Part shown: positions 3,299 through 7,120 of the stretch, piece after piece
Layout of the letters: every line of letters begins with the position of its first letter
Numbering within the stretch: position 1 is the stretch's first letter
Source of the DNA: an uncultured Pelagibacteraceae bacterium
GTDB taxonomy: Bacteria; Pseudomonadota; Alphaproteobacteria; Pelagibacterales; Pelagibacteraceae
Direction: 5' to 3'
Assembly (NCBI GenBank): GCA_902615435.1
Contig: CACMOZ010000002.1
Span: forward strand, 1-44,191
Length of the DNA: 44,191 nt
Position numbers and translations under genes: made by a program
Notes under the pieces: generated by a model
The model's input: the letters and a program-made list of their open reading frames with translations, nothing else
Database searches by the model: none
What the model was told of the DNA's origin: nothing

Positions 3299-3960
3299 AA
3301 GATTTAAAAAATATAAAATTTTGGTTATTTGACCTAGACAATACGCTTTATGATGGAGCTACCAAAGTTTTTGATCAGGTAGACAAAAAAATGTCAAAAT
3401 TTATTTCTGAAAAACTTAATGTCGATATTGAAGAAGCTAGAAAAATTCAAAAGAACTATTTTCAAGAATATAATACAACTTTAAACGGAATGATAAAACA
3501 CCACAAAATAGATGCTGATGAATTTTTAGAGTTTGTTCATGACGTAGATTTAAGTTTTTTAAAAGAAGATAAAGATTTAGAGGGCGAAATCAAAAAATTA
3601 GAAGGAAAAAAAATAATTTTTACAAATGGCTCTAGAGCGCACGCTCTCAATGTTACAAAACGAATAGGGATAGATAAGCTTTTTGATGGAATTTTTGATA
3701 TCCGAGATTGCGAATTTATTCCAAAGCCTTCAAAAGAACCTTATAAAAAATTAGTAGAAAATTACAAAATTGAGCCACAATATTGTATATTCTTTGAAGA
3801 TATTGCAAGAAATTTAAAACCAGCATACGAATTAGGAATGAAAACTGTTTGGATTAAAAATGATGAACCTTGGGCAGCAGAATATTCTGACTCGAATTTC
3901 ATTAATTATAAAACAGATAACTTGGCTAAATTTTTAAAGGAGATAAATGGGTTACTATAA
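3295..3960 (+). CDS. HAD-family pyrimidine 5'-nucleotidase-like phosphatase
   Basis: This 221-residue protein belongs to the haloacid dehalogenase superfamily. Motif I is [10 protein letters not shown] at about residues 12-21, with D13 as nucleophile and D15 as acid/base. Motif II is FTNGS, and motif IV is FFEDIARN with the magnesium-binding acidic residues. The layout resembles the Sdt1-type pyrimidine 5'-nucleotidases that alphaproteobacteria carry next to argB or dapD. Substrate specificity is inferred from family resemblance, so a more general phosphatase role is possible. It overlaps argB by 4 nt and dapD by 14 nt, implying tight coupling with arginine and lysine biosynthesis genes. Confidence 0.85.
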
Positions 3961-4774
3961 ACTTGAAAAAATAATAAACGAAAGTTTTGAAAAAAAAGAA
4001 AAAGTAGGTCCAAAATCAGATAGAAAATTAGTTAAGGCTATTAATGAAACTATAAATTTAGTTGATAGTGGAAAAATTAGAGTAGCAAATAAACGAGATG
4101 GAAATTGGATAGTAAATCAATGGATTAAAAAAGCTATTTTGTTAAGCTTTAGAATAAACAAAATGGAGATGATGAAAGGCCCATACACAACTTGGTATGA
4201 CAAAGTACCGGGCAAAACGGTAAAGTGGAAAGATAAAGATTGGAAAAAGGCAGGATATCGCCACGTGCCTAATGGAGTGGTAAGAAAAGGAGCCTTTATT
4301 GCTAAAAATGTTGTTTTAATGCCTAGTTTTGTAAACCTTGGAGCTTATGTAGATGAGGGTACAATGATTGACACTTGGGCGTCTGTTGGCTCATGTGCTC
4401 AAGTTGGAAAAAATTGTCATATCTCTGGAGGAGCAGGTATAGGAGGTGTGCTTGAACCACTTCAAGCTGGACCGGTAATTATTGAGGATAATTGTTTTAT
4501 CGGCGCTCGATCTGAAATTGCTGAAGGTGTATTAGTAGAAGAAGGTGCAGTATTATCAATGGGAGTTTACATCGGCGCATCTACAAAAATAGTGGATAGA
4601 AGTTCTGGAGAAATACATTATGGTAAAGTGCCTGCATATTCTGTTGTTGTTCCGGGAAGCTTACCTAACAAATCGAACCCAAGTGGACCTTCATTATATT
4701 GTGCAGTTATAGTTAAAAAGGTTGATGAAAAAACTAGAAGTAAAACTTCTATAAATGAATTGCTTAGAGACTAA
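3947..4774 (+). CDS. dapD: 2,3,4,5-tetrahydropyridine-2,6-dicarboxylate N-succinyltransferase
   Basis: DapD transfers succinyl from succinyl-CoA to tetrahydrodipicolinate in the succinylase route to meso-diaminopimelate and lysine. The 275-residue length matches the family. The centre shows left-handed beta-helix hexapeptide repeats (about residues 105-215), including [21 protein letters not shown] and the family-specific [16 protein letters not shown] region. The start is fixed by a good AAAGGAGA ribosome-binding site at 3936-3943, inside the end of the upstream HAD gene, which it overlaps by 14 nt. dapE follows with a 1-nt overlap (TAATG), so two enzymes of the same pathway are translationally coupled. 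Confidence 0.97.
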
Positions 4775-5931
4775 TGACTGTAATAAATGAAATACAATTA
4801 TCCAAAGATTTAATAAAATTTCCAAGCATCACTCCAAAAGATGCGGGCGCAATAAACTTTTTAAGTAAAAAACTGAAAAAATTAGGTTTTAATTGTAAAA
4901 TATTAGAATTTAAAGATAAAGGAAGTAAACCAATAAAAAATCTTTATGCAAGAATAGGTAAAAAAGGACCTAATCTTTGCTACGCTGGACATACCGACGT
5001 AGTTCCTCCTGGAAATTATAAAGATTGGACTGTTAATCCTTTTAAACCAAAAATAAAAAAAAATTACTTAATTGGAAGAGGAGCCAATGACATGAAAAGC
5101 TCAATCGCCTGCTTTGTTGCAGCTGTAAGTAAGTTTTTGCAAAAAAACCGAAAATTTAATGGATCAATTAGTTTTTTAATTACTGGTGATGAAGAAGGAT
5201 ATGCAATTAATGGTACGAAGAAAGTCGTAGATTACCTTAAAAGAAAAAAAGAAAAAATTGATTTCTGTATTGTGGGAGAGCCGACTAATCCAAATAGACT
5301 TGGAGAGATGATTAAAATTGGGAGAAGAGGAAGTTTGTCGGGAAAAATCGAGATATCTGGTACTCAAGGTCACATCGCGTACCCTCATCTTTCAAATAAT
5401 CCAATAAACACATTAGTAACTATATGTCAAAAACTTAAAGAAAAAAAACTTGATAAAGGGAATAAAAATTTTCAGCCTTCAAATTTAGAATTTACATCTA
5501 TAAATGTAGATAATAAAGCCCATAATGTAATACCTGCGAGAGCAAGAGCTCAGTTCAATATAAGATACAATAATTTTCACAGTTCTTACTCATTAAGGAA
5601 AAAAATTAATTTAATTGTAAAAAAAATTAGTAATAAAAATAAATGTAAATATAAAATTGATTACATTTCAAATGGCGAAGCTTTTTTAACAAAACCAGGA
5701 AAAACCATATTTATGGCAAAAAAGATAATTAAGAAAATAACAAGAATTAACCCTAAATTTTCCACCACTGGGGGAACTTCTGATGCAAGGTTTATAAAAA
5801 AAATATCTCCTTGCCTTGAGTTCGGACTTGTAAATAAAACAATGCATAGAGTTGATGAATGTGTCTCATTATCGGACTTAAGAAAACTTACAAAAATATA
5901 CAATAATATTTTAGTAGAGTATTTTAAGTGA
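4774..5931 (+). CDS. dapE: Succinyl-diaminopimelate desuccinylase
   Basis: DapE removes succinate from N-succinyl-L,L-diaminopimelate, feeding peptidoglycan and lysine synthesis in the cytoplasm. It is a dinuclear zinc M20-family enzyme. The 385-residue protein has AGHTDVVPPG with H73 and D75, GRGANDMKSS with the bridging D106, and TGDEEGYA with catalytic E140 and metal ligand E141. A late KTMHRVDE supplies the last histidine ligand. The family length is about 375-385. The start codon overlaps the dapD stop by 1 nt, and the stop overlaps the GTG start of the SET-domain gene by 4 nt. Confidence 0.96.
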   Translation: MTVINEIQLSKDLIKFPSITPKDAGAINFLSKKLKKLGFNCKILEFKDKGSKPIKNLYARIGKKGPNLCYAGHTDVVPPGNYKDWTVNPFKPKIKKNYLIGRGANDMKSSIACFVAAVSKFLQKNRKFNGSISFLITGDEEGYAINGTKKVVDYLKRKKEKIDFCIVGEPTNPNRLGEMIKIGRRGSLSGKIEISGTQGHIAYPHLSNNPINTLVTICQKLKEKKLDKGNKNFQPSNLEFTSINVDNKAHNVIPARARAQFNIRYNNFHSSYSLRKKINLIVKKISNKNKCKYKIDYISNGEAFLTKPGKTIFMAKKIIKKITRINPKFSTTGGTSDARFIKKISPCLEFGLVNKTMHRVDECVSLSDLRKLTKIYNNILVEYFK

Positions 5932-6383
5932 AATTATTCAAAATTAAAAAATCCAAAATTGACAAAAAAGGTTTGTACGCAAATTGTAATATAGAAAAAG
6001 GCACTAAAATTATTGAGTATAAAGGAAAAATAATTTCAACAAAAAAAAGTGAAGCTGACCCTAAATTTGATAATGGTAAAGCAATTTATCTTTTTAATAT
6101 AAATAAAAGATATGATCTTGATGGTGATTTTAAATTTAATAAAGCAAGATTAATAAATCACTCTTGCGATCCAAATTGTGAAGTGACAGGAACTGGGCTG
6201 AAAGTTTGGGTTTATGCAATTAAAGATATTAAAAAAGGTGAAGAATTTTCATATGACTATGGGTTTAGTTTTGATGAAGATTTTAAAAATTATCCATGTA
6301 GATGTGGTTCTAAAAAATGTTGTGGTTATATAGTAAGAGAAGGATCAAGATGGAGAATAAAAAAGAAAAGAAAAAAAAATTAG
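5928..6383 (+). CDS. SET-domain protein-lysine methyltransferase
   Basis: This small (151 aa) SET-domain protein should transfer methyl groups from S-adenosylmethionine to a protein lysine. The sequence shows the full core: an N-terminal KGLYANCNIEKGTKIIEYKG strand region, the NHSCDPNC signature at residues 77-84, FSYDYGF with the catalytic tyrosine near 111, and a post-SET CRCGSKKCCG (C124, C126, C131) that would bind zinc together with C80. The tail is strongly basic (KKKRKKN). It uses a GTG start overlapping the dapE stop (GTGA), and its end overlaps the convergent truA by 4 nt. The substrate is unknown; ribosomal proteins or nucleoid proteins are guesses. Confidence 0.9.
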   Translation: MKLFKIKKSKIDKKGLYANCNIEKGTKIIEYKGKIISTKKSEADPKFDNGKAIYLFNINKRYDLDGDFKFNKARLINHSCDPNCEVTGTGLKVWVYAIKDIKKGEEFSYDYGFSFDEDFKNYPCRCGSKKCCGYIVREGSRWRIKKKRKKN

Positions 6384-7120
6384 TATTTTACATCCATTAA
6401 ATACAGTCCCTCTGCTGGCGCAGGTGGTGCACATTTTAATCTATTTTTAGATTTAAAAGCTTTTTTAAAATCAATTAGAGTCCATTTATTTGTAGATAAA
6501 TATTTTAAACAGCCTACCATTGATCTTACTTGGTTTTGTAGGAAAGATTTTGAAACAAATTTAATATAAATTCTGCTATTAATTTTTTTTACAATTATAG
6601 TCTCCATTTTTTTAATTGGCGAATTGGCTCCGCAAGATGCAGCTCTGAAAGTAGAAAAATCATGTGTTCCCTTAAATATTTTTATACCCTTCTTCAAAAG
6701 GTTTAAGTCTATTTTTTTTTTTATATGCCATGCTTTATTTTTATCGATTGTTAATGGGCTTTGTCTATTAATAATTAAATATTCATATATTCTTTTTTTT
6801 GCATTATACCTTGCATGAAAATTTATTTTTTTAGATTGAATCTTGATAACTGAAATTAAATTTTTTTTTAAAAAAAAATTTATAGACTCTAAAAATTTTT
6901 TTTTATTATCTATTTTTTTTGTGGTTTTGAAATTTGCATATTGCCCAAGTGCATGTACGCCTTTATCTGTTCTGCCTGCTCCTGTAATTCTAATTTTTGA
7001 TTTTAATATTTTTTTTAACACTCTCTCAATTACATCTTGAATTGATTTTCCATTTTTTTGACTTTGCCAACCAACAAAGCCTAATCCGTTGTATTCAATC
7101 TTGATAAGATAATTAAACAT
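6380..7120 (-). CDS. truA: tRNA pseudouridine(38-40) synthase TruA
   Basis: TruA isomerises uridines 38-40 in the anticodon stem-loop of many tRNAs. The 246-residue protein has YNGLGFVGWQ near residues 10-19 and the catalytic motif GAGRTDKGVHALGQ at 47-60, with D52 as the nucleophile. RSMVG and a proline/alanine-rich PPAPAEGLYL end are also typical. Length matches the family. It is the last gene of a minus-strand unit after fmt (1-nt spacing) and ends tail-to-tail with the SET-domain gene. The coding sequence contains an unusual perfect A/T palindrome at 6857-6882, described separately. Confidence 0.96.
   Translation of the reverse strand: MFNYLIKIEYNGLGFVGWQSQKNGKSIQDVIERVLKKILKSKIRITGAGRTDKGVHALGQYANFKTTKKIDNKKKFLESINFFLKKNLISVIKIQSKKINFHARYNAKKRIYEYLIINRQSPLTIDKNKAWHIKKKIDLNLLKKGIKIFKGTHDFSTFRAASCGANSPIKKMETIIVKKINSRIYIKFVSKSFLQNQVRSMVGCLKYLSTNKWTLIDFKKAFKSKNRLKCAPPAPAEGLYLMDVKY

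Follow-up and report, generated by a model that had tools for sequence, protein, structure and literature searches.

What would a stand-alone SET-domain protein do in a streamlined SAR11 genome, and does its place behind the genes of diaminopimelate synthesis tell its function? These questions were raised by a short reading frame on a contig of an uncultured Pelagibacteraceae bacterium (44,191 nucleotides analysed; hereafter, the window). The frame is located at 5928..6383 on the + strand and encodes 151 amino acids from a GTG start to a TAG stop. The Pfam SET model (PF00856) matched its residues 14-112 with an E-value of 3.1e-23 (82.6 bits, the gathering cut-off being 22.4); besides SET, no Pfam family was hit in this ORF at E 0.001, and no NCBIfam model reached its cut-off. 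Of 14 named control genomes, the SET model matched one; in the window genome (1.04 Mb in 24 contigs, 87% complete) it gave a single match. On the 5' side of the gene are argB, a pyrimidine 5'-nucleotidase gene, dapD (3947..4774, + strand; TIGR00965, 441 bits) and dapE, encoding succinyl-diaminopimelate desuccinylase (4774..5931, + strand; NF009557, 525 bits), while truA (6380..7120, - strand; TIGR00071, 178 bits), fmt and def follow on the opposite strand; the convergent truA bounds the gap containing the SET gene, whose TAG stop overlaps the truA end at 6380-6383. The GTG of the SET gene and the TGA of dapE share 4 bp (GTGA, 5928..5931, + strand), and this overlap, which the first-pass annotation had taken as translational coupling, is repeated in 44 of the 45 Pelagibacteraceae loci (the window locus included) that have dapE directly upstream. 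Because 47 aligned relatives are 39-85% identical to the protein and dN/dS against nine relatives is 0.05-0.11, the SET gene stands far beyond chance; it is a genuine gene.

The motifs by which the protein had been recognized were all found and proved to be conserved in an alignment of 48 sequences, which were chosen across Pelagibacterales, HIMB59, other alphaproteobacteria, Verrucomicrobiota, other prokaryotes and phage with identity down to 39%. In the SAM-binding/pseudo-knot motif NHSCDPNC (residues 77-84; 6156..6179, + strand), N77, H78, C80, N83 and C84 are invariant, so that no loss of SAM-binding residues was seen at N77 and H78; in YDYG (residues 109-112; 6252..6263, + strand), the invariant residues are G112 and Y111, the latter presumably the catalytic tyrosine; and in the post-SET motif CRCGSKKC (residues 124-131; 6297..6320, + strand), they are C124, C126 and C131, which we take to be zinc-site cysteines. 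Y31 and G66 are likewise invariant. We assume the roles within NHSCDPNC from KMT structures, with C80 as the presumed fourth zinc ligand, and Tyr109 presumably occupies the F/Y-switch position. NHxCxPN and the catalytic Tyr are intact in the window protein, and the zinc-site pattern (CxCx4C plus the Cys of NHSC) is complete at the level of residues. CxCx4C was present, furthermore, in every cellular row counted: 84 of Pelagibacteraceae (f1), 25 of the group f2, 12 of HIMB59 (f32), 4 other alphaproteobacterial, 16 Verrucomicrobiota and 4 other prokaryote rows; it was also present in 4 of 4 viral rows (L142-L145), the rows L146-L160 being outside this count. Here, we infer the assignment of the order to Pelagibacterales, f1 to Pelagibacteraceae and f32 to HIMB59 from their nearest named relatives, which group with them in the tree. 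Within Pelagibacteraceae the tyrosine motif reads YDYG in 79 and CDYG in 5 of 84 sequences. We also noticed that L046, L048, L057, L060 and L102 have a Cys at the F/Y switch (TCDYG) paired with NHSC(D/S)NNC; this paired change may alter the methylation state.

The SET gene is under purifying selection. Estimated by the Nei-Gojobori method against the nine relatives, dN/dS of the window gene was 0.049-0.110, with dS of 1.2-1.8 and hence nearly saturated, and the 25 closest of 67 pairs gave 0.03-0.15 except for two at 0.22 and 0.45, where dS was below 0.03. Internal stop codons were absent from the listed SET matches above the cut-off in the searches of the genus and the order. With invariant motifs, strong selection and no such stop, the gene agrees with the earlier proposal of an intact enzyme of the protein-lysine methyltransferase type that is worth retaining.

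When the structure was predicted by AlphaFold2 with the 48-sequence alignment, the model had a pLDDT of 88.2 and a pTM of 0.80, with block means of at least 75 except for the last residue (52). The top Foldseek matches were MLL1-MLL4 (2w5z, MLL1, 3.5e-12), and VIA-align superposed model residues 1-136 on MLL1 with the H3K4me0 peptide (7w67) with a Z of 17.1 and an rmsd of 2.2 over 135 residues. Sequence and profile searches of the PDB also led to KMT2A (9e-24) and KMT2D (1.3e-36), respectively. Indeed, the closest solved relatives among the matches listed (the best 60 of 151, the best 60 of 137, and 50) are eukaryotic protein-lysine methyltransferases; bacterial SET structures, including BurB, were not among the 50 matches listed each by VIA and Foldseek, which excludes nothing. 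In the model, therefore, the SET fold spans most of the chain and is of the KMT2/MLL type. As for the zinc-binding post-SET methyltransferase that the first-pass annotation had described, the fold is borne out by the prediction, and the binding of SAM and zinc and the methylation of lysine are what we infer from knowledge of the family. The protein shares with the catalytic domain of KMT2/MLL (Set1/COMPASS) the fold, the motif order, the post-SET cysteines, the Tyr-Asp-Tyr and 33% identity over 135 residues, but differs in standing alone with only 151 residues and a basic tail. To our knowledge, neither the KMT2/MLL partners WDR5, RbBP5 and ASH2L nor histones are expected in these bacteria.

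We consider, with a probability of roughly 0.6, that the protein is a free-standing, soluble and SAM-dependent SET protein-lysine N-methyltransferase with a zinc-clamped post-SET lid, nearest to KMT2/MLL, and that it acts on a basic cytoplasmic protein. If KMT structures are a guide, SAM would bind on one face, presumably near N77, H78 and Y54, and the target lysine would enter from the opposite face through a tyrosine-lined channel that we take to be formed by Y31, Y54, Y109 and Y111; C80, C124, C126 and C131 would presumably hold and clamp the zinc of the post-SET lid. As a rule, a Tyr at the F/Y switch leads to mono- rather than trimethylation, and with Tyr109 at this position, monomethylation instead of trimethylation is therefore predicted.

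Does the neighbourhood then specify a pathway? Among 84 Pelagibacteraceae loci, some of which may be near-duplicates, 45 have dapE directly 5' of SET, 33 have an HDAC-like gene there and 6 some other gene; on the 3' side are a convergent truA (39), another gene on the same strand (39), another on the opposite strand (5) and the end of the locus (1). Three of the four downstream same-strand genes tested encode glycosyltransferases (PF00535, PF13692). The interval between SET and truA in L063, L064, L066, L068, L074 and others appears as a small flexible island with glycosyltransferase genes, which is absent from the window. The gap can also be free of SET: dapE, HDAC and truA are tightly arranged in G109, G206, G258 and G308, dapE and truA in G132, G154, G252 and also G118 of f2, and dapE is followed by HDAC with no SET in the ca. 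580 bp read beyond in G136, G196, G302 and G323. In G101 and G107 (g2), the dapE-HDAC arrangement is preserved, with SET on the same contig at a distance of hundreds of kb. Indeed, SET is located outside the gap in f2, HIMB59, g2 and a few g1 copies. In the f2 loci tested, it neighbours galE and a gene for an O-antigen ligase in L036 and a gene for UDP-glucose dehydrogenase in L044; in HIMB59, it is found by the gene of a calcineurin-like phosphoesterase in L109 and by a GNAT gene in L110; in L091, SET adjoins an S9 peptidase, and a gene of equal length is found at that place in L092 and L103. No match to dapE or dapD was found around SET in f2 (in flanks of only ca. 1.5 kb), HIMB59 and other loci outside Pelagibacteraceae. 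Even within the family, with dapE directly upstream in 45 of 84 loci, the dap linkage is not conserved throughout.

Since the dapE-truA gap holds different genes across the lineages, HDAC-like and glycosyltransferase genes among them, the link to dap is positional; the gap serves as a landing site at which SET is one tenant among several. The functional tie to diaminopimelate synthesis that the location had suggested is thus not sustained, the gap being empty or otherwise occupied in relatives and the SET gene being elsewhere in f2, HIMB59, g2 and some g1 copies. The dap operon plausibly provides SET with transcription and translation coupling, with no role in the pathway indicated. We also looked for recurrent partners of SET outside the dap context, and discarded this idea as the shared clusters were broad and small. 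In four of the 16 Verrucomicrobiota loci (L107:5198-5953, L117:5441-6196, L123:2807-3688 and L135:2031-2894), a member of one cluster adjoins SET or is close to it; Pfam assigned Exo_endo_phos to three of these members, all those scanned.

These arrangements bear on a serious rival, which we nonetheless find unlikely: the protein might be a small-molecule methyltransferase that, like BurB, converts free methionine to S-methylmethionine, or one acting on lysine or diaminopimelate near the dap enzymes. SAR11 handles DMSP-type sulfur compounds, and dapD and dapE do adjoin SET in the window. According to the main text of its report (PMC12542666), BurB of Burkholderia thailandensis is a SET enzyme of 172 residues that S-methylates free methionine; compared by this description, BurB/MSMT resembles the window protein as a small stand-alone SET protein and differs from what we propose in its free-methionine substrate. 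The words “zinc”, “post-SET” and “cystein” do not occur in that main text (PMC12542666), however, and a different bacterial SET type matched BurB (9l4t) weakly and in part (E 0.021). Also against this rival, the closest solved relatives among the matches listed are the eukaryotic protein-lysine methyltransferases, and the dap linkage is not kept outside one family.

The distribution of the gene is wide. PF00856 was found in 80 of 101 genomes of the window genus (7 of 7 of high quality) and, across the order, in 215 of 247 (133 of 149 of high quality), nearly always as a single copy. The first-pass annotation had regarded a post-SET protein as uncommon in streamlined bacteria, which is not supported, with 215 of the 247 genomes having SET and with its occurrence in HIMB59 and Verrucomicrobiota. 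In contrast, three related genera (g4-g6) had no SET match in 10 genomes, and where both sides were readable, as in 7 of these 10, the gap was closed and left no space for remnants; an irregular presence accompanied by decay, which had been considered, is thus half seen, as absence without remnants. The absence of SET in G202, G222, G253, G257, G334 and G110 is uninformative because the dapE orthologue was likewise not found there (only 23-32% matches), and G189 (g6) gave no dapE match. In the class, some SET match was obtained in 68 of 385 genomes, but E was below 1e-20 in only 12 of 385, including five Pelagibacteraceae and three f32. Relatives are encoded in at least 576 stretches of the genome collection, with Verrucomicrobiota at 41-49% and Woesearchaeota at 47-53% identity in the best 80; among the matches listed, relatives are carried by HIMB59 alphaproteobacteria, Verrucomicrobiota, Woesearchaeota and tailed-phage contigs.

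As a protein-lysine methyltransferase, the window protein would need a substrate, and a clue may be offered by its basic C-terminal tail REGSRWRIKKKRKKN (6336..6380, + strand), possibly an anchor to nucleic acid or the ribosome. The net charge of the last 20 residues is +8, the joint highest (with ribosomal L28) of 38 window ORFs, whose median is +2, and the post-SET tail has a median charge of +7 in Pelagibacteraceae (87 of 88 f1 sequences measured). The Lys/Arg-rich tail might keep the SET protein near nucleic acid, in which case the likeliest targets would be basic parts of the cell's own nucleoid or ribosomal proteins. This clue is to be taken with caution, as SAR11 proteins tend to be lysine-rich and not all relatives are basic-tailed. 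Four of 16 Verrucomicrobiota (L126, L133, L134 and L137) have long tails rich in Lys and Ala, which by eye resemble histone H1; other Verrucomicrobiota tails are short, and the tail charge ranges from -2 to +36. As summarized in a review (PMC3980110), cpnSET, NUE, Go1-SET and a SET protein of Opitutus terrae are, like the window protein, short and stand-alone; the chlamydial cpnSET methylates the histone H1-like Hc1 and the archaeal Go1-SET methylates MC1-alpha, both being DNA-binding proteins of the own cell, while the related NUE, also chlamydial, left Hc1 unmethylated (PMC3980110). Together with the basic tails, the pairs of cpnSET with Hc1 and Go1-SET with MC1 would, by analogy, make basic DNA- or RNA-binding proteins the best guess. 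Hc1-like proteins (PF07432, a model matching in 1 of 14 controls) were found in none of 21 related genomes, and the chlamydial substrate is therefore not seen there. HU/IHF proteins were tried as the substrate and gave no signal: they occur in 18 of 18 genomes tested, with and without SET alike (three matches in 15 of 18), and no lysine-rich tail was found in the HU/IHF proteins examined (30 loci among the matches listed).

A special case of our reading, improbable to a similar degree as the small-molecule rival, is that SET takes the place of PrmA, with L11 or another protein of the ribosome as its target. Matches to the PrmA model in 18 genomes of the order were all partial ones to the generic methyltransferase region, at just 18-43 bits, as such a replacement would have it; full-length PrmA was, however, equally unseen in the SET-lacking genomes among those 18, and the model matched in 14 of 14 controls with scores not displayed, leaving no true-PrmA score for comparison. 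Apart from the role of SET, SAR11 may be without the usual L11 methyltransferase, given that full-length PrmA was not seen in these 18 genomes.

Somewhat more doubtful still is a writer/eraser pair, in which SET would methylate, and the adjacent class II HDAC-like enzyme would deacetylate, lysines of the same proteins. The HDAC-like gene, as exemplified by that in L067 (5067-5993, + strand; PF00850, 2.4e-88; HDAC6 in the PDB, 2e-83), separates dapE from SET in many Pelagibacteraceae, and in 33 of 84 loci it is the immediate 5' neighbour of SET. It is nonetheless found beside dapE without SET in the eight genomes described above (G109, G196, G206, G258, G308, G323, G302 and G136), and hundreds of kb apart from SET in G101 and G107. 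In 24 sampled genomes of the window genus, furthermore, SET was found in 23 but the operon-type HDAC in only 5 (G059, G069, G077, G230 and G302), and G302 has the latter without SET. The two PF00850 genes of the window genome are located elsewhere and share 48% and 32% identity with the operon-type HDAC, and enzymes of the HDAC fold can be polyamine deacetylases, as PDB names among the matches tell. An obligate pair is thus largely undone, each occurring without the other; this separability argues against obligate writing and erasing, while the two may still pair where both occur. For the HDAC-like gene, the link with dapE, which also encodes a deacylase, may carry more meaning. In L097, the HDAC-like gene between dapE and SET appears to be split into two ORFs by a frameshift, decay or a sequencing error. 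It would be a long shot to regard SET and HDAC in many Pelagibacteraceae as a co-transcribed unit, a minimal write/erase system for lysines of nucleoid or ribosomal proteins, with some tailed phages carrying their own writer and the unit reduced or lost in some lineages; if true, it would act in the ocean's most abundant cells.

A secreted effector acting on eukaryotic chromatin, like NUE or RomA/LegAS4, is far-fetched: the fold is nearest to H3K4 methyltransferases and a SET domain is shared with AnkI/LegAS4 at a weak NCBIfam likeness, but the RomA/LegAS4 model (NF043024) has 439 positions for a 151-residue protein and scored 29.9 bits against the cut-off of 550, the nearest relatives among the matches listed are other marine alphaproteobacteria, Verrucomicrobiota and phage contigs, and SAR11 are free-living plankton.

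Returning to the protein-lysine methyltransferase, we examined its descent. In the careful tree, which left out eight rows of the quick tree (six alphaproteobacterial and two human), the Pelagibacteraceae SETs form one clade (100/99) with HIMB59 as the sister (96/82) and then one Opitutaceae row (95/90), and the f2 SETs group with phage and other alphaproteobacterial SETs (96/86). Although the best tree splits f1 from f2, the AU test did not reject a single f1+f2 clade (p 0.25). Of the phylogeny foreseen at the outset, therefore, one clade of Pelagibacteraceae beside HIMB59 is obtained, while a single origin with f2 is neither supported by the best tree nor rejected. With regard to the eukaryote-like character noted in the first-pass annotation, the quick tree held just two human rows for comparison with KMT2, flagged for long branches, and nothing in this analysis shows a eukaryote-to-bacterium transfer. 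A bacterial origin is argued for in a 2014 review (PMC3980110).

Viral contigs carry 19 loci with a SET relative. Four of them (L142-L145) share the gene order and encode proteins 43-45% identical to that of the window; like the window protein, their SETs have NHSCDPNC and CxCx4C, but they have YNYG instead of YDYG and adjoin a phage-type DNA ligase. These are tailed-phage-like contigs; in L143, for example, SET (4923-5432) is near a gene for an ATP-dependent DNA ligase of the phage type (PHROG, 6e-96), a 2OG-Fe(II) oxygenase gene (8e-36) and a gene with weak virion/tail-fibre matches. The L143 ligase has matches in 1156 named phages, each below 60% identity. Its closest named counterparts come from Lysinibacillus and Bacillus phages (ca. 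33%), and a description of these contigs as T4-like and marine is unsupported. Searched against 50,697 records of named phages, the SET protein of the window gave one weak match, in a Synechococcus phage.

The window protein belongs to an already known enzyme family: a SET sequence of Pelagibacter ubique is included in a published tree of SET proteins (PMC9018016), and a figure legend on a HIMB59 island names a SET-domain methyltransferase (PMC10734472). No function for the SET protein in SAR11 is described in the retrieved passages of the literature combining the SET domain with SAR11 or Pelagibacter, and our literature search returned no paper on methyllysine in Pelagibacter. Related genera devoid of SET are at hand for comparison, and the copies in phages suggest a possible role of the target in infection as well. 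Streamlined genomes shed little-used genes, and most sampled genomes of the order have kept SET under strong selection; a lysine methylation event by this protein would therefore matter to a very large bacterial population.
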